Shown: positions 6,792-40,074 of the stretch, piece by piece | Layout: each line of letters begins with the position of its first letter | Position numbering within the stretch: position 1 is the first letter of the stretch | Assembly (NCBI RefSeq): GCF_002224645.1 | Contig: NZ_CP022121.1 | Span: forward strand, 3,693,501 to 3,757,500 | Length of the DNA stretch: 64,000 nucleotides | Source of the DNA: Dehalobacterium formicoaceticum | GTDB taxonomy: Bacteria; Bacillota; Dehalobacteriia; Dehalobacteriales; Dehalobacteriaceae | Reading direction: 5' to 3' | The notes under the pieces: model-generated | The model's input: the letters and a program-made list of their open reading frames with translations, nothing else | Told to the model about the DNA's origin: nothing | Database searches by the model: none | Program-made: the position numbers and the translations under genes

Positions 6792-8084
6792 TTATTTCTC
6801 AGTTGCTTTTTGTAAAGCCTGATCCAAATCCCAAATCAAATCATCCACATCTTCGATTCCAATAGAGAGCCTGATCATATCCGGACTAAGACCGGCAGAT
6901 ATTTGTTCCTGCTCGGAGAGCTGGCCATGGGTGGTACTTCCGGGATGAATGACCAGGGATTTGGCATCTGCCACATTGGCCAAAAGGGAGAAGATTTCCA
7001 CATTATTAATAAATTTTTTACCCGCTTCTACGCCGCCTTTAATGCCAAAGGTGAAAATGGATCCTGAGCCTTTGGGCACATATTTTTGAGCCAATGCATG
7101 ATATTTACTGGTGGGCAGGCTGGGATAGTTAACCCAGTTGACCAGGGGATGTTCATCAAGATGCTTGGCAATTTTCATGGCATTGGAGACATGTTTCTCC
7201 ACCCGCAAGGAGAGGGTTTCCAGACCTTGGAGCAAAAGAAAGGAGTTAAAGGGGCTGATGCATGCACCCATATCTCTTAAAAGCTGCACTCTCATTTTTG
7301 TGATATAAGCCAAAGGACCTAAATCCACCGCATACCTCAAGCCATGATAACTGGTATCCGGCTCCGTCAGTCCGGGAAACCGGCCGCTTTTGATCCAATC
7401 AAATTTGCCGGCATCAATCACCACACCACCCATGGTCGTACCGTGACCGCCAATAAATTTTGTCGCTGAATGGATAACAATATCCGCGCCGAATTCAATC
7501 GGCCTGATCAGATACGGGGTCCCGAAAGTATTATCAACGATTAAGGGCAGACCATTTTCATGGGCAATCACTGCTACCCTTTCAATATCCGTAATATTAA
7601 TCCCGGGATTGCCTAATGTTTCGATATAGATGGCTTTGGTCTTATCGTTAATTGCCTGGCGGAAATTTTCCGGCTCATCGGGATCAACAAAGATGGTTTT
7701 AATGCCTAATTTAGGCAAAGTTGTAGAAAATAAATTATAAGTTCCTCCGTAAAGAGTACTGGCTGAAATAATTTCATCCCCGGTGCCGGCAATATTAAAA
7801 ATGGCATATGTAATGGCTGCTGAACCTGATGCTAAGGCTAAAGCACCTACCCCGCCTTCCAAAGCTGCCATTCTTTTTTCGAAAACATCTGAAGTGGGAT
7901 TCATCATTCTGGTATAAATATTTCCCGGTTCCTGCAAGCTGAATAGATTCGCAGCGTGTTCCGCATCCCGGAAGACATAGGATGTGGTTTGATAAATAGG
8001 AACCGCCCTTGAACCGGTGGCAGGATCGACTGTTTGCCCGGCGTGAACCTGCAGGGTATCAAATTTTAACTCTCTTTCACTCAT
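6792..8084 (-). CDS. metY: O-acetylhomoserine sulfhydrylase (homocysteine synthase)
   Basis: About 430 residues. PLP enzyme of the Cys/Met metabolism family. Visible: N-terminal [18 protein letters not shown], the aldimine lysine in [11 protein letters not shown] (about residue 209) and the C-terminal [12 protein letters not shown] typical of MetY rather than MetB/MetC. It forms homocysteine from O-acetylhomoserine and sulfide, which fits the acetyl-type MetA encoded in the same unit. ATG at 8084 chosen (AGGGAGTG six bases upstream); an in-frame GTG at 8093 overlaps the ribosome site. No S-box riboswitch is recognisable in the 141-base gap before it. Confidence 0.95.
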
Positions 8085-19563: not shown

Positions 19564-20262
19564 TTATCGGTTGAAAGAAATCACCATCTTCTTTTTAAAC
19601 CTGCTTAAAATATGATAGAATGATTTACCAAAGACAAGGGAAAAAGCGACATTTCCTACGGCGTGAATGGTATCAAAAGGAAAGCTGATGGCGTAGGTGG
19701 CTAAGAAAGTTTCCCAGGTCAAGGGATAAATAAAGCCCAGCCAATGCCAAAGGTTCATCACCCAGCCAAACAAATAGCCGTTCACAAACCCTAAAAGGGC
19801 AAAAGATACCGGTTTATAGCCTTTGCTTTTCATGCCTAACAGTGCCCCGCTTACCCCGCACATTCCCCAACTAAACATCTGCCAGGGAGTCCACGGTCCC
19901 TGGCCTAAGAAGAAATTGGATGTCAGGGCTCCTAAGGCGCCCACCATAAAGCCGGTTTGCGGCCCAAAAACATAACCGCTAATCATAACCAGAAAGGTGG
20001 TGGGCTGTAGACTCATAATCACGGCAAAGGGCACCCGGGCAATGGCGGCCAGGGAAGCCATTGCTGCCGTCAGCGCCACTACCTTGGAAGAGACCCCCTG
20101 CTGCTCAAAGCGCAGGAAAAAAGTAAGCAATGCCATCCCCACGATGATCAGGGAAAAAAGAGCCCAATTAATACCGTAAAAAGGAGTTTCCGGCACTGTA
20201 CTTAAAAGGAGCAGCAGAGCCATTAAAATGATGCTCACCAGGGGCAGAAGGTTCTTTTTCAT
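19564..20262 (-). CDS. ECF transporter substrate-binding (S) component
   Basis: About 232 residues with six membrane segments, the S-component layout. Visible: SLAAIARVPFAVIMSLQPTTFLVMISGYVFGPQTGF and GQGPWTPWQMFSWG; the alanine-rich first helices fit EcfT docking. ATG at 20262 chosen (GGAG nine bases upstream); an ATG at 20277 has no ribosome site. It is the last gene of a same-strand cluster with its own EcfT and a fused double EcfA ATPase, plus three extracellular proteins with toroid and DUF4430 domains. The vitamin is not assignable from this sequence alone; the partners suggest cobalamin or another corrinoid. Confidence 0.88.
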   Translation of the reverse strand: MKKNLLPLVSIILMALLLLLSTVPETPFYGINWALFSLIIVGMALLTFFLRFEQQGVSSKVVALTAAMASLAAIARVPFAVIMSLQPTTFLVMISGYVFGPQTGFMVGALGALTSNFFLGQGPWTPWQMFSWGMCGVSGALLGMKSKGYKPVSFALLGFVNGYLFGWVMNLWHWLGFIYPLTWETFLATYAISFPFDTIHAVGNVAFSLVFGKSFYHILSRFKKKMVISFNR

Positions 20263-20315
20263 CTCTTTGATCTCCATTTAATTCACTATAATTCCCTTTA
20301 TAATTAATTGCAGTG

Positions 20316-21851
20316 CTAATTTTTAGACAAAAGTTTTATCAATTGATTAATGCTAAAGGAACACTGGGCTCTGGTAGCCACGACATTTTCCTCAAATTGG
20401 GGGTAGAGCAGCCCTTCTTTTCGCGCTGTCTCAACATAACTGGAATACCACTTAGGTCCTTCCGTCAATTGATCTTTCTTATCTTGCGGCAGGGCCCGGA
20501 CCAACATTGCCGACAATTCCGCTCCGATGATTTTTCCGTTTCCGTCAAAAGTACCGTCCGGTCGGCCGTTAATATATCCCTGATCTACTGCCGCAGATAT
20601 AAAAGACCGCGCCCAATGATTCTCAGGAATATCACTAAACCGGGCGGCAGAATCATTATTCCCTTTCGGCAAATCCAGCCCTGAAATCAAAAACTTGGTG
20701 AATTCAGCCCGAGTTACCGGTCTTTCCGGACCAAAAGTACCGTCCGGATATCCGCTCAAAACTCCTTCTTTCACTAAGGCCTCAATGCTTTCATAAGCCC
20801 AATAGTCAGATGATAAGTCGGAAAATAAGCCCGAGGTACCCGCGGTGCTGTTTTGAAACCCATAAGTCATATTGACGGGATGTGGTTTCCCGGCCAAAGC
20901 CAGCACAGCAAATACCGTGGTATTGACAGGGGAGGAACTGACTCCTTCCTTCCAGTTAAAGGAACCATCCTGATTCGCCAGACTGAGTAGATGGGTAACA
21001 GGGTTATGCTGCCCCACAGTCCAATCAGCCCCCTGAGGATTTTCCCCAGCCGCCAGGATCCCTTGAATCGCCCAGGCATTAGATGATGCATTCGCATCCC
21101 CTCCCATCCAATCCCCGGCGCTAAAGCCGCCGTTTTCCTGTTGCAGCCCTTTGATAAAGGCCAAGGCTTTCCGAACGGATGGGGAATCAGGGGTCTCTCC
21201 TAACATAATCAATGTCTGTATTGCAATTGCGGTATCATCCACATCACTATCCATGCCTTCCAGCCAGCCAAAACCCCCATCCTGATTCTGTTGACGGAGC
21301 AGCCAGCTTTTTACCTTATCCTTTTGAGGAATCTCCTTCCCCACAGCAGACAATGATAGGACCGACCACATATGGGCATTGATCATCCCTTGTTCCCCTT
21401 TATCAGGCTGCCAGAACTGTCCGTCCTCCTGTTGAAAAGAAAGAATTTTTGATGTCAGCTCCTGAGCCTCCGTAGAAGCACCCTGGCCCGCAGCGGCATA
21501 CGCCAGCAACTGAAGCGCGTAGTCACTGGTTTCTTCCAGGGGTTGAGGGCTGTTCTTCAGAAAATCAAGGGGACTCTTTCCGGAAGGAGCCCAGGATCCA
21601 TCAGCTGCATCTTCTCCTGCTGCTTCCAAAGCAATGATTACCCAGCCGGTCAATTTCTTACTGCTGGTTCCACCTTTTTGCGCAGTAAATCCTCCGTCTG
21701 CATTCTGCACCCCCTGAAAATATATCAGCGCCTTTTCAATGCCCTGTTCTCCCTGCTTACCACCGAAAGGCTCTCCCGCAAAAGCCGCGCCCGGGTTCAG
21801 CATTCCCCATAAAAAAAGCACACCAATTAAAGCAGTTATCAATTTTTTCAT
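20316..21851 (-). CDS. Secreted terpenoid-cyclase-type toroid (transcobalamin alpha-domain-like) with SLH anchor
   Basis: 511 residues. Signal peptide (1-25, ending AAFAG). Residues about 35-325 hold at least five QW-like repeats (FQGVQNADGGF, FQQEDGQF, RQQNQDGGFGW, LQQENGGFSAG, NQDGSFNW), the alpha/alpha toroid shared by squalene/prenyltransferase enzymes and by the N-terminal domain of transcobalamin and intrinsic factor. The catalytic DxDD motif of cyclases is not seen and the protein is exported, so a binding role is more likely than catalysis. Residues about 340-505 are SLH-type modules (LSGYPDGTFGPERPVTRAEF, INGRPDGTFDGNGKI). GGGAGG precedes the ATG. Lies between the ECF ATPase and the S component. 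Confidence 0.88.
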   Translation of the reverse strand: MKKLITALIGVLFLWGMLNPGAAFAGEPFGGKQGEQGIEKALIYFQGVQNADGGFTAQKGGTSSKKLTGWVIIALEAAGEDAADGSWAPSGKSPLDFLKNSPQPLEETSDYALQLLAYAAAGQGASTEAQELTSKILSFQQEDGQFWQPDKGEQGMINAHMWSVLSLSAVGKEIPQKDKVKSWLLRQQNQDGGFGWLEGMDSDVDDTAIAIQTLIMLGETPDSPSVRKALAFIKGLQQENGGFSAGDWMGGDANASSNAWAIQGILAAGENPQGADWTVGQHNPVTHLLSLANQDGSFNWKEGVSSSPVNTTVFAVLALAGKPHPVNMTYGFQNSTAGTSGLFSDLSSDYWAYESIEALVKEGVLSGYPDGTFGPERPVTRAEFTKFLISGLDLPKGNNDSAARFSDIPENHWARSFISAAVDQGYINGRPDGTFDGNGKIIGAELSAMLVRALPQDKKDQLTEGPKWYSSYVETARKEGLLYPQFEENVVATRAQCSFSINQLIKLLSKN

Positions 21852-21877
21852 AAATTATCCCTCCCATAAAATTAAAG

Positions 21878-23575
21878 TTAAAGAGCTGCCGCCCGCTGAT
21901 CAGTCAGATGAAGAGCTTCCAAAATCCTCTGTGCCTGGGATAAAGTTACCACCCTGTCTGCGATATTTCTGAAAAGCTTGCTCACCTGGGAAGCATAGAA
22001 GGTGGAATCCGCCAGCATTTCATATTTATCCCCCTGTCCTACGATCCTGCCGCCGGCCATGAGCAAAATATCCTCAGCATATTCAGCCGCAAATTCCACA
22101 TCATGGGTAATCATCAAGATGCTTATCCCCTCTTTTTGCAGATCCAAAAGCATCTTGCCCAATTTTTCTTTTAGGGAGTAATCCAGTCCCCGTGTCGGTT
22201 CATCCAGCAACAACAGTTTAGGGCGACATACCAGCACAGAAGCAAGGGCGACCCGTTGCCTTTCTCCGGAGCTTAAGTCCCGGGGGTTTCTGTCCAGATG
22301 TGCCGTTAACCCTAATTTTTCCGTGATCTCTCCGGAAATCCCTCCGTCCTCCAAATGAAAATTTTTCAATGCAAAAGTAATTTCCTCCCGGACAGTAGGC
22401 AAAAACAAATAGTCATTAGGGTTCTGGGACAGATAACCTACCAAAGGAGCAATTTCTTCCACGGACATTTTTGCCGTATTGCGGCCTAAAATTTCTATCC
22501 ACCCCCGATCCGGTTTTAAAAGACCGTTAATCAATTTAGACAAGGTGGTTTTTCCCGACCCGTTTTCCCCCATGAGCACAGTGAATGACCCTTGGGGTAT
22601 CTCCAGATTAATATCTTTTAAAATCTCCTTCCCGCCCGGATAAGAAAACCACAGTTTTTCCATCCGCACCATCATCTTTTCCGTATCGCGGGGAGCTTCT
22701 CCGGTTATTTCCTGACTCGAAGAACCTTTCGGCATCTTAATACCCTCCGCAGGCCAATAGGTTCTGAGAATTTTTCTCCCGTCTTTCACCGTCACGGGAA
22801 TTTCCGGGAAGCCGGCTCCGGCAAACAATTTGACCAAGGGAGGAATAAAGGGCATCTGATGCTCAGCAGCCCACCGGGCCAGGGTATCAGGAGCATGGTG
22901 ATCGGAAAGGATTTTGCCCTGCTCCATCACCAACACCCGATCCGCCAGATGAAAACAGCGTTCCAGCCTTTGTTCAATCAACACAACGGTAATCCCGTTA
23001 TCTTCATTTAAACGGCGGATAACAGTCAATATTTCCTCACCGGCAACAGGATCCAACTGGGAAGTAGGTTCATCCAAGAGCAGGATTTCCGGCTGCATCG
23101 CCAAAACTGCGGCCAGCGCAACTTTTTGCTTCTGACCCCCGGATAATTCCGGGGCAAAACCACCCATAATCCCGCCCAAATCCAATGCGCCGGATACTTC
23201 CATTAAACGACGCTTCATCAAACTGTCGGGCATCCCCAGATTTTCCATTCCAAAGACTAATTCCTGTTCCACCGATGTCATCACCAACTGCCCTTCAGGA
23301 TCCTGAAAAACCATGCCCACTTTTCCGGTGCGCTTTCTGCGGTTCATTTGAGATACATCCTCTCTATCCAGCAGCACTTGACCTGATATCGTACCCCCAT
23401 AGAATTCCGGGATCAGTCCACATATGGCTCTGATCAGAGAGGATTTTCCACAGCCGGATCCTCCGACAATCAGCACAAACTGCCCTTCCGGAATCTCCAG
23501 GTTAATCCGGTCTAAAGCTGCTTCTTCACGATCCGGATAAGTATAGGTCAAATTTTTGATCTGAATAAAGGCCAC
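21878..23575 (-). CDS. ECF transporter ATPase, two ATPase domains fused (EcfA1-EcfA2)
   Basis: About 565 residues with two complete ABC ATPase modules. First: GGSGCGKSS, LSGGQKQK, ILLLDEPTSQLD. Second: GENGSGKTT, LSSGERQR, LLLLDEPTRGLD, ITHD. A spacer (about 240-305) joins them. Separate EcfA and EcfA' genes are usual; fusion gives a 1:1 heterodimer. The GTG at 23575 directly after a G-rich ribosome site is preferred, other GTG/TTG codons lie up to 15 bases upstream. Its start overlaps the ecfT end by about 28 bases, implying coupled translation. Energises the S component encoded two genes downstream. Confidence 0.9.
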   Translation of the reverse strand: MAFIQIKNLTYTYPDREEAALDRINLEIPEGQFVLIVGGSGCGKSSLIRAICGLIPEFYGGTISGQVLLDREDVSQMNRRKRTGKVGMVFQDPEGQLVMTSVEQELVFGMENLGMPDSLMKRRLMEVSGALDLGGIMGGFAPELSGGQKQKVALAAVLAMQPEILLLDEPTSQLDPVAGEEILTVIRRLNEDNGITVVLIEQRLERCFHLADRVLVMEQGKILSDHHAPDTLARWAAEHQMPFIPPLVKLFAGAGFPEIPVTVKDGRKILRTYWPAEGIKMPKGSSSQEITGEAPRDTEKMMVRMEKLWFSYPGGKEILKDINLEIPQGSFTVLMGENGSGKTTLSKLINGLLKPDRGWIEILGRNTAKMSVEEIAPLVGYLSQNPNDYLFLPTVREEITFALKNFHLEDGGISGEITEKLGLTAHLDRNPRDLSSGERQRVALASVLVCRPKLLLLDEPTRGLDYSLKEKLGKMLLDLQKEGISILMITHDVEFAAEYAEDILLMAGGRIVGQGDKYEMLADSTFYASQVSKLFRNIADRVVTLSQAQRILEALHLTDQRAAAL

Positions 23576-24462
23576 TTTCCCCACCCCCAACTCAACAACG
23601 CCGGCGTACTCAAAAGTACGATTAACACTCCTGCGTTTTTGACTGAATCTACTTGAATTCTTTCCATTCTGGGATAATATGCATAAGCAGATGTTCCGCT
23701 AAAAACTGCCCAAAGGCCAATACCAAGGCCGATACATAGTGCCACAATAATTATCCGATCTCTGGGACGCCACAGATCATGGCGAATAGCGGTCCGGGGA
23801 CCGCTGCCATAGCCCCGGGCATGCATGGATTCCGCCAGTTGCAGGGCACGTTCCAAACTGGACAGAAGCAGGACGCTCATCACGGGAATGGATTTTTTGA
23901 TTCTTTCCCACCAGCCTCCCTTATCAAATTTTACCCCGCGGCAACGCTGAATTTCCGTGATGCGTTGATAATCCTGGGTAATCAAAGGAAAAAGCCGGGT
24001 GGATAGGGTGATGGCTAAGACAGATTTGTTGCCTCGTCTGCTAAGAAGCTTCAGCACCTTATCAGGATGCACCCCATAGGAATAAAGGCAAAATACGCTG
24101 ATAATCACCAAGAGACGTATCCCCATCCCGACACTGTAGGCTAAGGCCTCCATAGTGATTTCAACTTCTCCCAATAAGGGAATCCTGGGTCCGGTGAGCA
24201 ATATCGTAGTGCCAGCATTAGAAAAAATGGCATTGATCACCATCATAAATAGCACCATAATCACGGTAAATTTTAAGTATCCCTTCCACTGTGGAACAAT
24301 GCCGGCGGCAATGATCACCAGGCTTACCCCACCAAAAAGCGCCAAAAGATATACCGGATGAGAAAAGAGCAAGGCCAACAGAAAGACCACCCCGATAAAA
24401 GATACAGCTGTCAATGGATGGAGCTGGTGAATTAAGTTGTTTTTTTCTTTGTACGCCAGCAT
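23548..24462 (-). CDS. ecfT: ECF transporter transmembrane (T) component
   Basis: 304 residues, five or more membrane helices. The coupling-helix motifs are visible as IQRCRG (first) and SMHARGYGSGPR (second Ala-Arg-Gly box), which insert into the ATPase grooves. A C-terminal extra hydrophobic region (about 235-295) makes it a little longer than average. GGGAG precedes the ATG. Sits between the DUF4430 lipoprotein gene and the fused ATPase gene, all on the minus strand with short gaps or overlap. It is dedicated to this cluster, being distinct from cbiQ at 39.3-40.1 kb. Confidence 0.93.
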   Translation of the reverse strand: MLAYKEKNNLIHQLHPLTAVSFIGVVFLLALLFSHPVYLLALFGGVSLVIIAAGIVPQWKGYLKFTVIMVLFMMVINAIFSNAGTTILLTGPRIPLLGEVEITMEALAYSVGMGIRLLVIISVFCLYSYGVHPDKVLKLLSRRGNKSVLAITLSTRLFPLITQDYQRITEIQRCRGVKFDKGGWWERIKKSIPVMSVLLLSSLERALQLAESMHARGYGSGPRTAIRHDLWRPRDRIIIVALCIGLGIGLWAVFSGTSAYAYYPRMERIQVDSVKNAGVLIVLLSTPALLSWGWGKWPLFRSKI

Positions 24463-24516
24463 AATTCTCCCGCTTTCTTTTTTTATTAAAGCAATATTTT
24501 GAAATCTTTGCTAAAA

Positions 24517-25794
24517 TCAGTCCGATAACAGGGGCAACCGGACAACTTTCCCGGCCTTAATGGCTGCGCTATACATCCCGCTGATTTTATTCGGCTCACT
24601 CGCCAGCAGATTTACCGCTTCTTCCAAACCTTTTTCGTCTGTACCGGACATGATCCAAAGAGGCGCTTTATCCCCCAAGCCGGAACCGGTAGCCAGAAGC
24701 ACGCCGGTACTGCCGGAGACCCTCCGACCCGCTTCCCCGTTATATAGAAGCAGATCCAGCCCCTGGTCCGTAAAATGAACCGAACTCCCGGTTTTCCGAT
24801 AGGCGTTATTGAAATCCTGGAGCCACTTTATCTGATTCAATTCCTGCCACTCTCCAAGAACCAATACCGGCCCTTTTCTTTTTTTTAGCACATTCTCGTC
24901 AATCTCTTTAATGCTTACTGTTTTTACTCCTTGCGTTGTCAAAGCTTTTTTCATCTTTTCGCCCAGCGCCTTTTTATCCGGTGTATACATCACCGTAGTG
25001 GCGCCTGCCTGTCCCCCGTAGCCGTGTATAAAAGGTTGGGGATAACTGCCGATCACCGCTGGATTGGCAGAACCCATACCATGCCAAAGATGATAATCCC
25101 ACCAAACGACTTCTCCCCCCTGAAGATGATATGCGTCCGCTCCCATATCGGCACAAACCCCATTAACATAAAAAAACCAGTCTGTTCTTTTGCCGGAAAG
25201 TCCTCCTTTATCCGTCTTCAAACCATTAATCCCCTTAATAAAGCCACCGTCATAATCGGTTTCTATCTTCATATTAGCTTCCAAAAGATCTAAAACGGTC
25301 CCGTCTTTTTCTATTTCCACTTTTTTTGCAGTGATTACCTGAGCGCCAAAATCCTTGGTTACCAGCAAAGTAACGGCATTTTTCTTGACCGGTTTAACTG
25401 AATTTTCCGGTGTTTTCTGCTGATCAAGTTTTTTTAACGGGCCGGTGCTTTTTTCTTTTGCCTGATCTGCTTGCAGAGTAGATGTTTTCTTATTTGAAGC
25501 AGTCTCCCCTTGCACAGGCAGCTTTTTATCTGCCGATTTTTCTGAATCCTTTGACGCTTTTTCCGTCTTGATATCAGACCCGGTTTCCACTGTTTCTTTA
25601 GTTTCTTCGGCTTCTACCTTATTTTCTTCTTTGGTTTCTCCCCTTTCCTTTCCTGTATCGGTATCCATTTCCGTAACCGCTTGGGTGGTATTGTTCGACG
25701 GTGGATTTTCCGCTTCTTGCCCCCCGCATCCCCAAGTCATAAGTAGAATCAGAAAGAGCAAAAGCAACAAAGAAAAAACGTATTTCTTTTTCAC
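24517..25794 (-). CDS. DUF4430 (transcobalamin beta-domain-like) probable lipoprotein
   Basis: 425 residues from a GTG (GGAGGTG eight bases upstream). The N-terminal hydrophobic stretch ends MTWGCGG, a relaxed lipobox, so it is probably lipid-anchored. Residues 25-135 are a low-complexity Lys/Glu/Thr linker. Residues about 145-245 are a DUF4430 beta-grasp domain (VLDLLEANMKIETDYDGGFIKGINGL, DWFFYVNGVCADMG, GGEVVWWDYHLWHG). This domain is homologous to the C-terminal cobalamin-contacting domain of transcobalamin. The C-terminal domain (about 255-425, VLVLGEWQEL) is not recognised. Encoded between the SLH toroid/DUF4430 protein and ecfT, it may hand substrate to the membrane transporter. Confidence 0.85.
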   Translation of the reverse strand: MKKKYVFSLLLLLFLILLMTWGCGGQEAENPPSNNTTQAVTEMDTDTGKERGETKEENKVEAEETKETVETGSDIKTEKASKDSEKSADKKLPVQGETASNKKTSTLQADQAKEKSTGPLKKLDQQKTPENSVKPVKKNAVTLLVTKDFGAQVITAKKVEIEKDGTVLDLLEANMKIETDYDGGFIKGINGLKTDKGGLSGKRTDWFFYVNGVCADMGADAYHLQGGEVVWWDYHLWHGMGSANPAVIGSYPQPFIHGYGGQAGATTVMYTPDKKALGEKMKKALTTQGVKTVSIKEIDENVLKKRKGPVLVLGEWQELNQIKWLQDFNNAYRKTGSSVHFTDQGLDLLLYNGEAGRRVSGSTGVLLATGSGLGDKAPLWIMSGTDEKGLEEAVNLLASEPNKISGMYSAAIKAGKVVRLPLLSD

Positions 25795-25815
25795 TTCATT
25801 TTCACCTCCCGGGTG

Positions 25816-28800
25816 TTAATTTCCTTCGGCTCCTAAGTACCGGTACACTGTTACTGCCGCTTCTACCCGGGTCAGGAAATTACCGCCCCTAAAAGTATTG
25901 TCTTCATATCCGGTCATCAATCCCTGCTCATGCACAAAGTGAATTCCAGGCACCGCCCATGTCGGGATCCCCTTTGCATCTTTAAAGTTTAAGGACAGGT
26001 TTTGATCGGCGATCGGCGCCTTTTCCTGCATCCGGTAGAAAATAGCTGCGGCCTCATTTCTGGTGATATTGTCCTTGGGACGGAAGTTACCGCCCTCACC
26101 GGTAATAATATTCATATCATAAGCTTGTTGCACATAACCGGCAAACCAATCATCTGCTTTTACATCTTTAAACAATCCATTCCCATATACTTGAGGCTCC
26201 AACCCGGCACTTGCAACCATGATCTTAACAAACTCCCCTCGGTTGATCGACCGCTTGGGTTCAAAACCGCCGCCGGTACCGCTGATATAACCTTGTCCGG
26301 CCAGAATCTCGATGGCATCTTTTGCCCAAGCCATACTTTCATCCACATCGGAGAAGCTCTTTCCTTCCGGCAGTTGGAGCACGGCGATTTTAGTAAAATG
26401 GTCAACCCGGAAAACAACTAAACCAGTCTCCATGTCAATTATTCCCGGAACAGGCACCCACATTTCAGATTCTTCGTTATACCAAGCAGGGAATATTTGT
26501 TTCATCTCCAGTCCATCCGTAAAAGGTGTCCTGATCGCAATAATTGCTGACTGATTAAATTTCGCGCTCTCGGAAGCTAATTCATAAATAGAAGAGACTA
26601 ATTTTACAGCAAACTGTTTGGGCCGGTCAGCGGAACCTACCTCGTTCAGCCTAATTTTTCCCCCTTGGCTCAGGGCTTGCGCCGAAATCAGTAAAGCTAC
26701 TTCACCATCAGATAAAAATGACTCCTCTGTGCCTGCATCCAAGGATAAAGACACATTATGCTTTTCCAATTCTTCTTTTAAAGCAACCGCCTCTTGAGCC
26801 GTCATTTTTTTATCAGCATTCAGCAGTTTATTTTCCTTTAATCCTACCAGATTGTCTATGTATGCTGTGACCATCGATTTTGTAATTTTCTCCTCAGTCC
26901 CAACAGAAACACTTCCTGCCCCTGCTGAAGCACCACTGGGCCAATCAGGCCCATGGGTATCCATGGCATCCATGCTGTACCACCAGAGAATTTTGTCCCC
27001 CGCTTTTACCTTGGTCACTCCGGCCGCAACCTCAGGCACGGTATTGTTGACCTTAAACATCCAACCGTTTTGACCCTGATTTTTTTGGCCTTCAATTTCC
27101 ACCACCAGATCTTCACTGTCTTTGGAAGCTGCCCAGTCCAAACCAGCGGCATCCAAAGCCCCCAACGCAGTCCAACCATAGGTGTCCTTTTTGGATATGG
27201 TTACATTGTCGGGTCCAAAGAGGACATCCTTCGCACCGCCTTTTCCCACAATATATACTTTTACCGTTATATCATCGGAACTGCCGCTGCCACCGCCTCC
27301 CCCGGAATTTCCCTTATCTTGCACGATAAAACTTCCATTATAGGTAACTACATCGGGATACCCTTGATCACTGCTGTTTGATACCGTAAAATTTATCGTT
27401 CCCTTTGTCACATAGGCGATGTTTACCTGACCATTTTCACTGGTATAGCTTGTCTCTCCAACCTTAACAGCATAATTACCAATAACCCCTTTCTCCTCTT
27501 CAGTCAAATCACTCAGCCCGTCCGGCCAATTATATTTTTTCGCGCCGATGGTGATGGTAACCGTCTCTCCTTCCTTAATATTTGCCGGACTGACACTTAC
27601 CTGGGGTAAATAGGTTTTTCCCACCCAAGTGGTATTATCGGCGGCTCCGATATAGAAGACGATTTCATCTCCATCCTTCACCTTATAACCGCCTGATCCC
27701 AGATCAAAGGCACCGGGTTCAATCTCCCCATCCCGGATTACGTAATACAACCAATTTGTATTTATCCCTTCGACAATCCCCGTCTGACCGGCTTCTCCTT
27801 TGATCCGGCTGATCCAACCGTCAAAATCCTCAACCTCTTCTTCTCCCACCGCTTTTTTTAAGGCATCCAGAGCGGTGCCGGTCACTGTTACTTTCTCATC
27901 CGCCAGGTTGGTTTCATGTCCCTCCACCCGTACCCGAACAGTTTTTTCCTCAGATGGATCACCACCCGGTTCACCGGAGCCTCCGGAACCTCCATTACCA
28001 CTTTCCACAACCTGGGCCAAGGCCATCAATGCAAATCTGGTCGCTATCAAGTCTGAAGAAGCATTGGCCACATGACTAAATGAACCGTCGGACAATTGAA
28101 AACGGAGCAAAGCATCAATCATGTTATCATTATTCTTCTGCCATCCAACTGCAGTAACATCCTTTTCAATAGCCAATAAACCCAATATTACACTGGCGGT
28201 AGACTCACAGTTTTCTGTTAAAGCATTTGCATCCGTACCGAATCCACCCGTCTCCTTCTGAACACAGTGCAAATAATCCATAGCTTCTGCATAAGCTGCT
28301 TCCACTCCATCTGCATCTTGATGGTTGGCTAGTGCCACCAAAGCAAATCCAGTAGAATCCGTATCAGGAGTCTGATCTTTATTAGTCCAGGAAAAACCGC
28401 CGCTCTCGTTTTGCTGACCTAACAGATAAGCAACAGCAGCTTCCGTGTTATAGTTCCCGTTAGTCCGATCCAAGGCAATCATCGCCCAATAAGTCAGCAT
28501 CGTTTCGGCGCCAAAACCTCCGTTGTCTTCCTGCAATGCGGCTAATTCCGCAACCAGGTTTCTGCCTTCGATATTCGCCGGATCCTCTCCTGACGCGTCT
28601 ATGCTAAGGATCAAAGACAAATAATCCAAAACACCGGCCTCTTCATTTAAAGTATCTAAATTCCATTCCGGCAGCTGCCATGGATCATCCTGTAAATTCT
28701 CCCCAGCCTCCGTCAATCCCACTATTTCCTGCCAATGGGTTAAGTTATTCTTGTTGTCCGCGTAAAAGATGACTGTCTTTTGCTGGGCTTCCTTATAAAA

Positions 28801-28890
28801 ATTAACACTTTCACTAGCGCTAACGATACCGGAAAAAACAAGTAAAAGAGTTATTAGAAGACAGCAAAGCATACTTTTCTTAATTTTCAT
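25816..28890 (-). CDS. Large surface protein: toroid, two DUF4430 domains, SLH anchor (bacterial transcobalamin-like)
   Basis: About 1024 residues from the ATG at 28890 (AGAGGGGG upstream). Order: signal peptide (1-27); alpha/alpha toroid with four QW-like repeats (about 110-300: LQEDNGGFG, QQNESGGFSW, QKETGGFGTD, FQLSDGSFSH); Gly/Ser/Pro linker; DUF4430 domain 1 (about 317-425); Ig-like region (430-525); DUF4430 domain 2 (about 540-650, ending DTHGPDWPSG); a beta-rich spacer; three SLH modules (about 845-1024). Toroid followed by DUF4430 is the same order as the alpha and beta domains of transcobalamin and intrinsic factor, which clamp B12 between them. Presumed first gene of the ECF unit. 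Ligand binding is inference. Confidence 0.9.
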   Translation of the reverse strand: MKIKKSMLCCLLITLLLVFSGIVSASESVNFYKEAQQKTVIFYADNKNNLTHWQEIVGLTEAGENLQDDPWQLPEWNLDTLNEEAGVLDYLSLILSIDASGEDPANIEGRNLVAELAALQEDNGGFGAETMLTYWAMIALDRTNGNYNTEAAVAYLLGQQNESGGFSWTNKDQTPDTDSTGFALVALANHQDADGVEAAYAEAMDYLHCVQKETGGFGTDANALTENCESTASVILGLLAIEKDVTAVGWQKNNDNMIDALLRFQLSDGSFSHVANASSDLIATRFALMALAQVVESGNGGSGGSGEPGGDPSEEKTVRVRVEGHETNLADEKVTVTGTALDALKKAVGEEEVEDFDGWISRIKGEAGQTGIVEGINTNWLYYVIRDGEIEPGAFDLGSGGYKVKDGDEIVFYIGAADNTTWVGKTYLPQVSVSPANIKEGETVTITIGAKKYNWPDGLSDLTEEEKGVIGNYAVKVGETSYTSENGQVNIAYVTKGTINFTVSNSSDQGYPDVVTYNGSFIVQDKGNSGGGGGSGSSDDITVKVYIVGKGGAKDVLFGPDNVTISKKDTYGWTALGALDAAGLDWAASKDSEDLVVEIEGQKNQGQNGWMFKVNNTVPEVAAGVTKVKAGDKILWWYSMDAMDTHGPDWPSGASAGAGSVSVGTEEKITKSMVTAYIDNLVGLKENKLLNADKKMTAQEAVALKEELEKHNVSLSLDAGTEESFLSDGEVALLISAQALSQGGKIRLNEVGSADRPKQFAVKLVSSIYELASESAKFNQSAIIAIRTPFTDGLEMKQIFPAWYNEESEMWVPVPGIIDMETGLVVFRVDHFTKIAVLQLPEGKSFSDVDESMAWAKDAIEILAGQGYISGTGGGFEPKRSINRGEFVKIMVASAGLEPQVYGNGLFKDVKADDWFAGYVQQAYDMNIITGEGGNFRPKDNITRNEAAAIFYRMQEKAPIADQNLSLNFKDAKGIPTWAVPGIHFVHEQGLMTGYEDNTFRGGNFLTRVEAAVTVYRYLGAEGN

Positions 28891-28997
28891 GTTTATCCCC
28901 CTCTTTTTCATTTTTTCTTTAAACTGAAAATACACGTTCAGACAAGGTCAATCTAAAATTTCTCTTAGCTTCAGCAAGGTTGATCCTTTTTGATAAA

Positions 28998-29028
28998 CAA
29001 AAAAAGACATCATCCAAAAAGATGATGC
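28998..29028 (-). terminator. Terminator downstream of the DUF2292 gene
   Basis: GACATCATC-loop-GATGATGCC hairpin, followed on the minus strand by TTTTTTT. It lies between the DUF2292 gene and the large SLH protein, separating their transcription or acting as a leader attenuator of the latter. Confidence 0.75.
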
Positions 29029-29156
29029 CTCCGTTGTTCGGTCAGCGTCACTAGCTCATTTTCTATAACCAGGTACATTATTTCGTCAACATATTCGGAT
29101 CTGCTTCCCATATGTTTTTCATGCAAAGCTCGGTATTTTCATTAAATAAGAACGCC

Positions 29157-29309
29157 TTATAATTTTATAGATTTAGTGATTTCTTCAATTCTCACCGGTT
29201 CCCAATCCTGGATAATAACCTTCAATTCGCCAAATCCCGTACTGCGAATCAACTCAATTAGTTTTTTCTCCTTTTCCGTCACCATCATTTTTAAATTAGC
29301 TTCTTTCAC
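29157..29309 (-). CDS. DUF2292 (YezD-like) small protein
   Basis: 50 residues from a GTG at 29309, with GGGAGGGGG just upstream; stop at 29157. The sequence contains KKLIELIRSTGFGELKVI and QDWEPVRIEEITKSIKL, matching the DUF2292 pattern of helix, GxG, two beta strands and a basic end. In other bacteria such proteins often sit beside sulfur or cofactor genes, but the function is not known. It has its own terminator downstream (28998-29028) and lies between cbiN and the ECF cluster. 129 bases separate it from the cbiN stop. The 29029-29156 stretch downstream shows no gene. Confidence 0.75.
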   Translation of the reverse strand: MKEANLKMMVTEKEKKLIELIRSTGFGELKVIIQDWEPVRIEEITKSIKL

Positions 29310-29438
29310 TCGATCCCCCTCCCATTTGATTTTATTTTGTCCGAATAATTATTGATGCCTAAAACAGAGTTTTTGGCATAAGATGGAGTTTTGCTCCATC
29401 TTATGCTTAACAATCGTTATCCAGGAACTTAGTGCTAG

Positions 29439-29762
29439 TTAGTTATTTGATAAAACTCCTGATTTCTCGCCATCTAGCTTACTTAATTTAGCTGCAGCCT
29501 TGGCCTGTCCTTTTTTCAATCCAAAATAGTATCCCAAAAATCCTGCCCCCAAAGCAGCCTGGAGCGCAAAAAGCAGACTTTCCGTTTCTCCTCCCGGTGG
29601 TTCCCAGAAAGGAGTAAACCATGGCTCATAAGAAGGATCAACTTCCGTAATGGCTTCTTCCGCAAGACCATCCGCGCCGCCAAATTCAGAATCTTGCACC
29701 AAGAATAAAGGAGTTACGGCTAAAATAATCACGATTAGAATCAAAATCCAGGAATACTTCAT
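29439..29762 (-). CDS. cbiN: Cobalt transport protein CbiN
   Basis: 107 residues with two membrane helices (about 3-23 and 62-82) and an acidic extracytoplasmic loop between them, the CbiN topology. CbiN assists CbiM in cobalt uptake. Starts 3 bases after the cbiM stop with the ribosome site GGAGGCG inside the end of cbiM, so the two are translationally coupled. cbiQ and cbiO are not adjacent but lie 9 kb away. Confidence 0.93.
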   Translation of the reverse strand: MKYSWILILIVIILAVTPLFLVQDSEFGGADGLAEEAITEVDPSYEPWFTPFWEPPGGETESLLFALQAALGAGFLGYYFGLKKGQAKAAAKLSKLDGEKSGVLSNN

Positions 29763-29765
29763 TTT

Positions 29766-30527
29766 TTATTTCGCCTCCTTCTTGTTCGGGGAAATCAGAT
29801 TAAGTAATCCCATTTCGTTCTTGCTGTAAGTTGTCAAGAAATTAAAAACGACAACGGTTAGCAAGCCTTCACTGATCGCCAAAGGAACCTGTGTTACGGC
29901 AAAAATACCTAAAAATTTAACCGCCGATGCAGCAATTCCGCCCACTTCTGCTGGAAAAGCCAATGCTAGCTGGAGGGAGGTGACAACATAAGTCATCAAA
30001 TTCCCCAAAGCGGCGGCCAGAAATACGGCAATTCCGTTGGATAAACCGACCTTCCTCGAAAATACAAATACACCGTATGCAACAAAAGGACCTGCCACAC
30101 CCATAGAAAAAGTATTGGCTCCCAAGGTGGTCAGACCCCCATGGGCCAGAAGAATTGCCTGGAACAACAAAACAATGCAACCAATCACACCCATAGCAAG
30201 AGGCCCGAATAGCACAGTGCCCAAGCCAACCCCTGTAGGATGGGAGCTGCTGCCTGTAACTGAGGGAATCTTCAGCGCAGACAAAACAAAGGCAAAGGCA
30301 CCGGATACTCCTAACAGCAACTTCAGCTCTGGGTTTTTGGAAACTTTTTTAGAAATGGATATAATACCCAGGATAATAAACGGCAAGGTCAGCACAGACC
30401 AGAAAATTGCCCATTTGGCAGGTAAAAATCCTTCCATAATGTGCATAGCACGAGCTTCTTGGGGAAAGAAACTAAAAATTCCTAACATAAGTATAAAAGC
30501 TGCAAACAATTGCAAATACTTTTTCAT
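29766..30527 (-). CDS. cbiM: Cobalt ECF substrate-binding protein CbiM
   Basis: 253 residues. A cleavable signal peptide ([18 protein letters not shown]...QEARA) is followed by MHIMEGFLP, the conserved mature N-terminus whose His and backbone bind Co2+/Ni2+. Seven membrane segments and [25 protein letters not shown] (second metal-site His region) are family-typical. AAAGGAGG before the ATG. Controlled by the cobalamin riboswitch and terminator at 30621-30871, which argues for cobalt rather than nickel. Confidence 0.97.
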
Positions 30528-30653: not shown

Positions 30654-30716
30654 AATCTACATACAGTAAACCTTAGCAAGCCAAGCCGTTCTCTCCTCGG
30701 GCTACAGCTTTCTAAA

Positions 30717-30871
30717 AGGCAGGTCTTCTGGCTCTCGTGTCATCCTCCTCCCACGCCTTCCCATCCACATAAAAACCGGATAGTGACATCTTGGGGATTC
30801 GTCTTCGATTACAGCGGCGGATCCGCACCGGAATAAAACCGGTTTCCCTATTCTCCCATACAGGCACCTAA
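30717..30871 (-). promoter_or_regulatory. Cobalamin riboswitch 1 (upstream of cbiMN)
   Basis: On the minus strand the aptamer runs from GGTGCC through GGGAA, the core GCCGCTGTAATCG and ends with the B12 box AGCCAGAAGACCTGCC. These conserved blocks and their spacing identify a cobalamin riboswitch. It represses the cbiMN unit when B12 is plentiful. Long blocks are identical to riboswitch 2 at 40188-40340. Confidence 0.96.
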
Positions 30872-31210
30872 TAGATCAATATTAAATTTTATTTCTATGC
30901 AAACAAAATATCTCTTTGAGATCAAAACACACGCCTTTTTAATATCTTTATGCTAAAAGCTTATAACATGCAGGTTTCTACTAGTTTATCTTCCAGAAAA
31001 TCCTTGCATACACTATTATTTGTATCTTACTACAATATTTATAACATAGGTGGTTTAAAAAAGCAATATATGATTCCACAGCAAAAAGTTCAATTTACGA
31101 TTTTCTACCCTATATGTAGTGGACAATGATAGCTCGTGATACTCTATATAGACTGAATTAGGCAAAAATAGGGGTTTCTGCAGCGGTATTAGTGGCAGTT
31201 AGTTATCGGA

Positions 31211-38441: not shown

Positions 38442-39299
38442 TTAATTTAAACGATCCAAAACCTGCAATTGGGAAAATAAGCTCATTAATTGTTCTTTTT
38501 TTCTGGGGATGGGTGTTTCTTCTTTAATCGCCTTGTTTTTTACCAGTTCGTCAAAGACATCCAGCACCCAGGGTTTCCTCAAATTAGCCTTTCTTAACAC
38601 CTGAGCATTACGAAATATTTCCTCCGGCAATCCTTCGGCAATGATTTCTCCCTTGTTCATAACAAAAATATAGTCCGCCCAAGCATATATCTCATTTAAA
38701 TCATGACTGGATAAAATCAATGTCGCCCCCGTTTGATTAAAATCATCCAATAACTGCATCATTTCCGCACAATAATAAGGGTCCAAACCGGCGGTAGGTT
38801 CATCCAAAAAGATGACCTCCGGCTCCATAGCCAAAATACCGGCAATAGCTACTCTCTTTTTCTGTCCATGACTGAGAAAATGAGTGGGTTTATCTTTAAA
38901 ATCCCAGGTACCCGTTCTTTTTAAAGCTTGTTCTACCTTGGTACGAATTTTTTCTTCCGGCCATCCCATGTTCACCGGGCCAAAGGAAACATCCTGATAT
39001 ACGCTGGCTGAAAAAAGCTGGCTATCAGGATCCTGAAAAACAATCCCTACATTTTTGCGCAGTTCTTTCAAACTTTTGGAGTTATAATTAACTGAAGCCC
39101 CTTTATAAATGATCTTTCCTTTTTCCGGCCGATGCACGCCATTAAAATGTAAAAAGAGGGTAGATTTCCCGGCACCGTTATTCCCCACTACTCCAAACTT
39201 TTTCCCTTTCTCAAATTTCAAGGATAGATTTTTCAAGGTAACCGTGCCATCCATATAAGAAAAATTCAGGTTTTCTGCCTCTAAAATATATTCAGACAT
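38442..39299 (-). CDS. cbiO: Cobalt ECF transporter ATPase CbiO
   Basis: 285 residues. Walker A GNNGAGKST, Q-loop FQDPDSQLF (typical of CbiO/EcfA), signature LSHGQKKR, Walker B VIFLDEPTAGLD and H-loop SSHD. A C-terminal extension (about 235-285) is common in CbiO. Ten bases after cbiQ. With CbiQ it completes the cobalt uptake system whose CbiMN are encoded at 29.4-30.5 kb. Confidence 0.95.
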   Translation of the reverse strand: MSEYILEAENLNFSYMDGTVTLKNLSLKFEKGKKFGVVGNNGAGKSTLFLHFNGVHRPEKGKIIYKGASVNYNSKSLKELRKNVGIVFQDPDSQLFSASVYQDVSFGPVNMGWPEEKIRTKVEQALKRTGTWDFKDKPTHFLSHGQKKRVAIAGILAMEPEVIFLDEPTAGLDPYYCAEMMQLLDDFNQTGATLILSSHDLNEIYAWADYIFVMNKGEIIAEGLPEEIFRNAQVLRKANLRKPWVLDVFDELVKNKAIKEETPIPRKKEQLMSLFSQLQVLDRLN

Positions 39300-39309
39300 T
39301 ATTGACCTC

Positions 39310-40074
39310 CTAAATGAAAGCTAAAATAATCAGTCCAAGGTCTATCAGACTAAAAACAGCAATATTCGCCAGAGAAAAGTGATATTTGGGGTTAATCACC
39401 TTAAGTTCGCTTTCATAACCTCTGGATAATAAACAATCATATAAAGCTTTTGTTTTAAAAAATACTTTCTGGCACAGATTTCCAAAAAGGATGCCAAAAG
39501 AGTAGATCGACCGCTTAAAATTGCAATATCCCCAGCGGGAAGACTGGGCAGTGTAAATATTAAAGGCCGTTTCCACAAAAACAAAAATAAAGCGGTACAT
39601 CAACATCATCAATTCCGCAAATATCGCGGGCACCTTCATTTTTTGCAGCAGATAAATCAACTCAATCATCGGTATGGTTAAGGCAATAAAATACAGGCAA
39701 GTCACCGCGCTCAGCGCCCGCATCATAATGGAAAAGGATTGAGCCAGACTGGTTTCCGTGACACCCAGATAAAAGCGTCCCAGTTTTAGACTGGCCAACA
39801 TTCCGGCAGGATCATCAACAATGAGCACACCAATGGTCACTACGCCAATCAGCAAAAAACTCAATGGTACGAGCATCAGTTTGGCAACTACCCTCCAGGG
39901 AACACGGGCTTTAAAAACCAAAAGACCCAACATAATACCGATAATAAGCAAATGAATCAGCGGTTTATGAGCCGTGAAACAAATAACCAGAGTAGCCATG
40001 GCAAAAGCAAACTTCTCCCCAGGATGAATCCCACGCATTTTATTGGTATAAACAAATTGGTCCACATAAAACAT
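39310..40074 (-). CDS. cbiQ: Cobalt ECF transporter T component CbiQ
   Basis: 254 residues with about six membrane helices. EcfT-type coupling motifs are visible in the C-terminal half (SSRWGYCNFKRS and LSRGYESELK, an ARG-like box with Ser-Arg-Gly). First gene after cobalamin riboswitch 2 and its terminator, so it is B12-repressed. cbiM and cbiN are missing from this unit and lie 9 kb away on the same strand behind a similar riboswitch. Confidence 0.92.
   Translation of the reverse strand: MFYVDQFVYTNKMRGIHPGEKFAFAMATLVICFTAHKPLIHLLIIGIMLGLLVFKARVPWRVVAKLMLVPLSFLLIGVVTIGVLIVDDPAGMLASLKLGRFYLGVTETSLAQSFSIMMRALSAVTCLYFIALTIPMIELIYLLQKMKVPAIFAELMMLMYRFIFVFVETAFNIYTAQSSRWGYCNFKRSIYSFGILFGNLCQKVFFKTKALYDCLLSRGYESELKVINPKYHFSLANIAVFSLIDLGLIILAFI

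Follow-up and report, generated by a model that had tools for sequence, protein, structure and literature searches.

Capture of vitamin B12 (cobalamin) at the bacterial surface for delivery to an importer is not a new idea: Burroughs et al. (2007; PMC1796856) proposed it from sequence. In their account, exported bacterial proteins combine an alpha/alpha toroid with a transcobalamin-type beta-grasp (SLBB) domain and are encoded in CbiO-/CbiQ-like operons with an energy-coupling factor (ECF) ATPase, a CbiQ-like protein and, in many cases, another SLBB protein. The authors suggested B12 scavenging and a transfer of such proteins to animals. On the import side, the closest described system is ECF-CbrT of Lactobacillus delbrueckii (PDB 6FNP), which imports cobalamin and cobinamide (PMC5997447). 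Here we describe a six-gene operon on the minus strand (19564–28890) of a 64,000-nucleotide stretch of the Dehalobacterium formicoaceticum genome, called the window below, and find it to be a strongly supported member of the kind predicted in 2007. The operon very probably serves to scavenge corrinoids (vitamin B12, cobinamide and related cobamides), coupling surface capture to dedicated import. This interpretation, put forward in an earlier reading of the DNA (the original prediction), is supported by a CbrT match of the S component, fold matches in the PDB, riboswitch linkage in relatives and gene co-occurrence statistics, which, together with gene fusions, are what we add to the 2007 proposal.

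B12 supply shapes microbial communities, and we found no experimental account of B12 collection outside the membrane in Gram-positive bacteria; a full-text literature search likewise returned no experiments on DUF4430 or toroid proteins from bacteria. An analogous role, surface B12 capture feeding an importer, is played by the BtuG surface lipoproteins of gut Bacteroides, a Gram-negative outer-membrane system (PMC6143338).

Pfam and NCBIfam assignments confirmed the same-strand cluster of S component, EcfT, double EcfA, DUF4430 lipoprotein and two toroid proteins with surface-layer homology (SLH) repeats that had been anticipated. The genes are transcribed in the order capture protein, DUF4430 lipoprotein, EcfT, EcfA-EcfA', toroid/SLH protein and S component, with the following features.

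25816–28890, minus strand: wall-anchored capture protein, comprising a signal peptide, an alpha/alpha toroid, a DUF4430 domain, an Ig-like stretch, a second DUF4430 domain, an uncharacterised stretch and three SLH repeats
27955–28842, minus strand: toroid domain of the capture protein (profile bounds; toroid/transcobalamin fold match)
27634–27939, minus strand: first DUF4430 domain of the capture protein, a transcobalamin C-terminal-type beta-grasp immediately C-terminal to the toroid, as in transcobalamin
26941–27267, minus strand: second DUF4430 domain of the capture protein (profile match)
25837–26355, minus strand: three SLH cell-wall anchoring repeats of the capture protein (profile match)
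24517–25794, minus strand: DUF4430 protein, probably a lipoprotein and proposed to act as a relay at the membrane; its C-terminal domain has no family assignment (Pfam; lipoprotein-like signal)
23548–24462, minus strand: EcfT, CbiQ-family transmembrane coupling subunit (Pfam/NCBIfam; PF02361 CbiQ)
21878–23590, minus strand: EcfA-EcfA' fused ATPase with two ABC_tran domains, overlapping the end of ecfT (Pfam/NCBIfam)
20316–21851, minus strand: the other exported toroid protein, which has SLH repeats but no DUF4430 (Pfam/profile)
19564–20277, minus strand: CbrT-type ECF S component, predicted corrinoid-binding membrane subunit (PF12822 and PF07155 above cut-off; CbrT match)

The capture protein probably starts at the ATG at 28890, which is preceded by a good Shine–Dalgarno sequence. 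DUF4430 (PF14478) scores 63.8 bits in the capture protein and 58.8 bits in the lipoprotein, relative to a cut-off of 23.8; the weaker first domain of the capture protein reaches 25.1 bits with its neighbours, and no further DUF4430 domain lies above threshold in the genome (one contig, 3.77 Mb). The assignment of the protein at 24517–25794 as a lipoprotein held in that its DUF4430 domain follows a lipoprotein-like signal, but the lipobox here, TWGC, is atypical, with canonical lipoboxes found in many relatives. A sequence search found no relative of this protein among PDB sequences. Its C-terminal domain (24517–25300), which has no Pfam or PDB match, is kept in about 25 relatives.

The S component, searched alone against all PDB sequences, gave a single match, 6fnp_A (E = 2e-14). 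A profile built from 22 S-component members matched 6fnp at E = 2e-34, followed by RibU (0.002) and 4hzu (0.035), which places the protein clearly nearer to CbrT than to other S components and not, as the original prediction had allowed for, in the family of a different vitamin. The L. delbrueckii CbrT, although homologous, uses a shared general ECF module, whereas the operon described here encodes its own EcfT and two EcfA ATPases, fused as EcfA-EcfA', in a dedicated, group I-like arrangement accompanied by surface proteins. The 2007 account, in the part considered here, mentions no S component and no control by riboswitches; the window's operon has a CbrT-type S component, a riboswitch linkage that can be quantified in relatives, and SLH anchoring.

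Five relatives carry EcfA-EcfA' and a CbrT-type S component as a single open reading frame (ORF) of 867–1059 amino acids with both Walker A motifs (L105:7040–10036, L122:7585–10323, L123:7989–11165, L124:5927–9022 and L125:6833–9433). A tethered S component of this type would be hard to square with models that have the S component leave the ECF module once per cycle.

The operon is kept, in nearly the same gene order, at about 55 Bacillota loci, and because dozens of genomes repeat the arrangement it is not a matter of chance. In 46 of the 52 operons whose upstream DNA could be searched (the window's own included), the first gene has a cobalamin riboswitch (Rfam RF00174) at most 1 kb away; the median distance is 142 nucleotides, and random placement would yield about 0.0008 riboswitches per operon, or about 0.04 over all 52. 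In the relatives, the first gene 3' of the riboswitch is usually the toroid–DUF4430 surface gene, and cbiZ adjoins the operon in several of them (L047, L068, L070, L089, L093, L094 and L098). We also measured the co-occurrence of S component and DUF4430, a check that the original prediction had proposed, in 398 genomes drawn evenly from the phylum, calling the S component at E ≤ 1e-14. Both were present in 112 genomes and neither in 273, with the S component alone in 4 and DUF4430 alone in 9 (Fisher p = 3e-82). The minimal version of the system is a two-gene pair of DUF4430 and S component, and in one genome (L113) a pair of DUF4430 lipoprotein and S component stands behind a cobalamin riboswitch. 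In another (L095:7616–9832), a single ORF encodes an S component, a hydrophobic helix, a toroid and SLH repeats, which makes toroid and S component parts of a single machine, although the fusion may contain a cleavable signal.

At one locus (L119:2817–6980), a second toroid–DUF4430–SLH gene lies downstream of the S component and has a cobalamin riboswitch of its own (7048–7230).

Structure predictions connected the surface proteins to animal B12 carriers. An AlphaFold2 model of mature residues 1–640 of the window's capture protein, with a mean predicted local distance difference test score (pLDDT) of 77 and a predicted template modelling score (pTM) of 0.52, retrieved only haptocorrin, transcobalamin and intrinsic factor among its first 11 PDB matches in Foldseek. 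Similar results were obtained with the toroid–DUF4430 protein of a compact Paenibacillus relative (L055; pLDDT 88, pTM 0.72), whose top 15 matches were transcobalamin, haptocorrin or intrinsic factor, with E values from 1.6e-10 to 3e-9, the next being farnesyltransferase at 1.8e-4. The DUF4430 domain of this relative superposed on the isolated transcobalamin beta domain (5no0) with a TM score of 0.72 and a root-mean-square deviation (rmsd) of 3.2 Å. As in the animal proteins, a toroid is followed by a beta-grasp fold; the PDB alignments cover about 420–460 columns, and the bacterial models are 12–16% identical to the animal carriers in aligned regions. Unlike transcobalamin, haptocorrin and intrinsic factor, the bacterial proteins are wall-anchored and multi-domain. 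BtuG is not known to be related in fold to the bacterial toroid/DUF4430 proteins.

According to DSSP strings only, the L055 DUF4430 domain consists of two strands, a helix (315–325), strands 330–333 and 340–344 and then strands 356–364 and 385–392, and the window's second DUF4430 domain has a similar pattern. As predicted in these models, the strand pattern shows the post-helix beta-hairpin insert that defines the transcobalamin-like clade (PMC1796856). A pattern scan, in which many toroids gave no match, found the terpene cyclase motif DXDD in none of the toroid motifs adjacent to DUF4430; where a motif was found, these toroids carried a DxD[ITML]T-like sequence, whereas the solo second toroid, the window's copy included, often retains DxDD. 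Thioester (TED) proteins were ruled out as an identity for the toroids, with GCGEQ occurring in no toroid ORF.

Several observations weigh against corrinoid capture by this operon. The claim that toroid and DUF4430 together have the architecture of transcobalamin and intrinsic factor stood for fold and domain order, but neither model reproduced the closed arrangement of the two domains (rmsd of 16–20 Å across both domains), which may nevertheless form. Searched against PDB sequences, the toroid–DUF4430 alignment profile matched terpene cyclases and not transcobalamin, so that kinship with transcobalamin rests on the fold comparison and the published SLBB analysis. The animal Pfam family Cobalamin_bind (PF01122) matched the toroid just weakly, and in no more than 2 of the 18 members (lowest E = 0.011). 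Five genomes with a DUF4430 and S component pair (L108, L109, L110, L111 and L112) contain no cobalamin riboswitch at all, although in L109 the pair adjoins what we read from sequence as putative methylmalonyl-CoA decarboxylase-type genes. Genomes that look Veillonellales-like by their gene content (f60) retain the pair without a cobalamin riboswitch, and in Intestinibacter (L065) the operon is present with no riboswitch. Finally, a nearly complete pathway for making B12 de novo is reported for D. formicoaceticum (PMC10344839), whereas the bacteria of the 2007 proposal are said usually to lack B12 synthesis (PMC1796856).

The regulation of the window's own copy belongs with these points. All three cobalamin riboswitches that had been predicted in the window were found, but they precede cbiMN, cbiQO and cbiZ, respectively, and the operon leader (28800–29500) contains no RF00174, permissive Rfam settings giving only noise there. 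The region upstream of the operon contains the following.

30701–30886, minus strand: cobalamin riboswitch before cbiM, the closest to the operon, 1.8 kb upstream (Rfam RF00174)
29439–30527, minus strand: cbiM-cbiN cobalt S components, upstream B12 context (Pfam/NCBIfam)
29157–29309, minus strand: DUF2292-like ORF of 50 amino acids between cbiN and the operon (marginally under the Pfam cut-off)
29003–29032, minus strand: hairpin resembling a terminator, located downstream of the cbiMN unit and ahead of the operon, with a conserved counterpart in Ca. Formimonas warabiya

The hairpin thus separates the cbiM riboswitch from the operon. In Ca. Formimonas warabiya (NZ_CP017634), which belongs to the same family as the window's host, the operon is preceded, in this order, by tandem riboswitches, cbiM, cbiN, cbiZ, DUF2292 and the hairpin, and about 55 nucleotides comprising the hairpin and its flanks are 95% identical while the surrounding intergenic DNA diverges; the hairpin is possibly a regulatory element of some kind. 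What the two genomes conserve is synteny with a B12-controlled unit; this copy may itself be under B12 control.

Some of these points would be expected if the ECF transporter imported corrinoids while the toroid and DUF4430 surface proteins were S-layer scaffold or wall-polysaccharide binders, so that ligand would be handled by the S component alone or, perhaps, by it and the lipoprotein. SLH repeats are ordinary S-layer anchors, and the closeness of the toroid sequence to terpene cyclases, the absence of a two-domain clasp from the models and the genomes that retain DUF4430 and S component without toroids would all fit such a division. However, the toroid–DUF4430 gene is the one that comes first behind a cobalamin riboswitch in most relatives, one genome fuses toroid and S component (L095), and the two domains match those of transcobalamin and follow each other in the same sequence; we therefore regard a scaffold role as unlikely.

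Two further alternatives concern the ligand, and we consider each of them highly improbable. Given that EcfT matches PF02361 CbiQ and that cbiM and cbiN lie immediately upstream, the operon could be a cobalt transporter with EcfT and EcfA of the CbiQ and CbiO families. The CbiMNQO cobalt transporter does share these families, but its S component is different: that of the operon is of CbrT type, and no CbiM-type S component is encoded inside it. The operon's EcfT scores 40.8 bits, far under the CbiQ equivalog cut-off of 111.8 bits, whereas the genome has a separate cbiQ (171 bits) with cbiO at 38442–40074, behind a riboswitch of their own, and relatives carry the operon without adjacent cbiMN. 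Cobalt transport was rejected on the presence of the separate CbiQO and on the S component not being CbiM. Import of another tetrapyrrole or vitamin, such as heme, or of a non-B12 ligand in some lineages, would find room in the DUF4430 and S component genomes that lack a cobalamin riboswitch, and ECF heme import is known in Staphylococcus lugdunensis (PMC7299338). It is opposed by the riboswitch at 46 of 52 operons, the CbrT match, the adjacency of cbiZ and the finding that hemin is no competitor for ECF-CbrT (PMC5997447).

For corrinoid scavenging, we infer binding by the surface proteins and hand-over from wall protein to lipoprotein to S component. SLH-fixed toroid–DUF4430 wall proteins would trap corrinoids on the outer side of the membrane in a manner like that of transcobalamin, whose toroid and beta-grasp sandwich B12; the DUF4430 lipoprotein near the membrane may take over or concentrate the ligand; and the CbrT-type S component would accept the corrinoid, with the dedicated EcfT/EcfA-EcfA' motor powering ATP-dependent import. 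A CbiZ-type enzyme could remodel the imported corrinoids for use by many corrinoid enzymes. B12 enzymes predicted in the window were indeed found: it encodes a B12-dependent ribonucleotide reductase and corrinoid methyltransferase proteins, and also CobB/CbiA. With B12 synthesis reported in the host, salvage would be an additional source for a high corrinoid demand. In the same genome, a riboswitch-led gene (L013) encodes a binding protein resembling siderophore/heme/BtuF-type proteins, so the capture operon is probably not the sole corrinoid route.

Mammalian carriers free B12 only after proteolysis (PMC5997447), which is unsuited to a reusable receptor. A bolder version of the corrinoid reading, which we judge about evenly balanced between right and wrong, is a Gram-positive receptor chain in which wall transcobalamins hold B12 in a clasp of toroid and DUF4430 domain and release it without proteolysis to the lipoprotein, which loads the CbrT S component, the mammalian carriers being laterally acquired, one-way derivatives of the reusable bacterial receptor. 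If corrinoid capture is correct, the system is widespread in Bacillota, one role would explain both the DUF4430 domains of 'unknown function' and the exported toroid proteins, and the 2007 idea that animal B12 carriers derive from such bacteria would become testable.

The window's cobalt transporter is itself split, with cbiMN (29439–30527) and cbiQO (38442–40074) lying roughly 8 kb from each other and each preceded by a separate cobalamin riboswitch.

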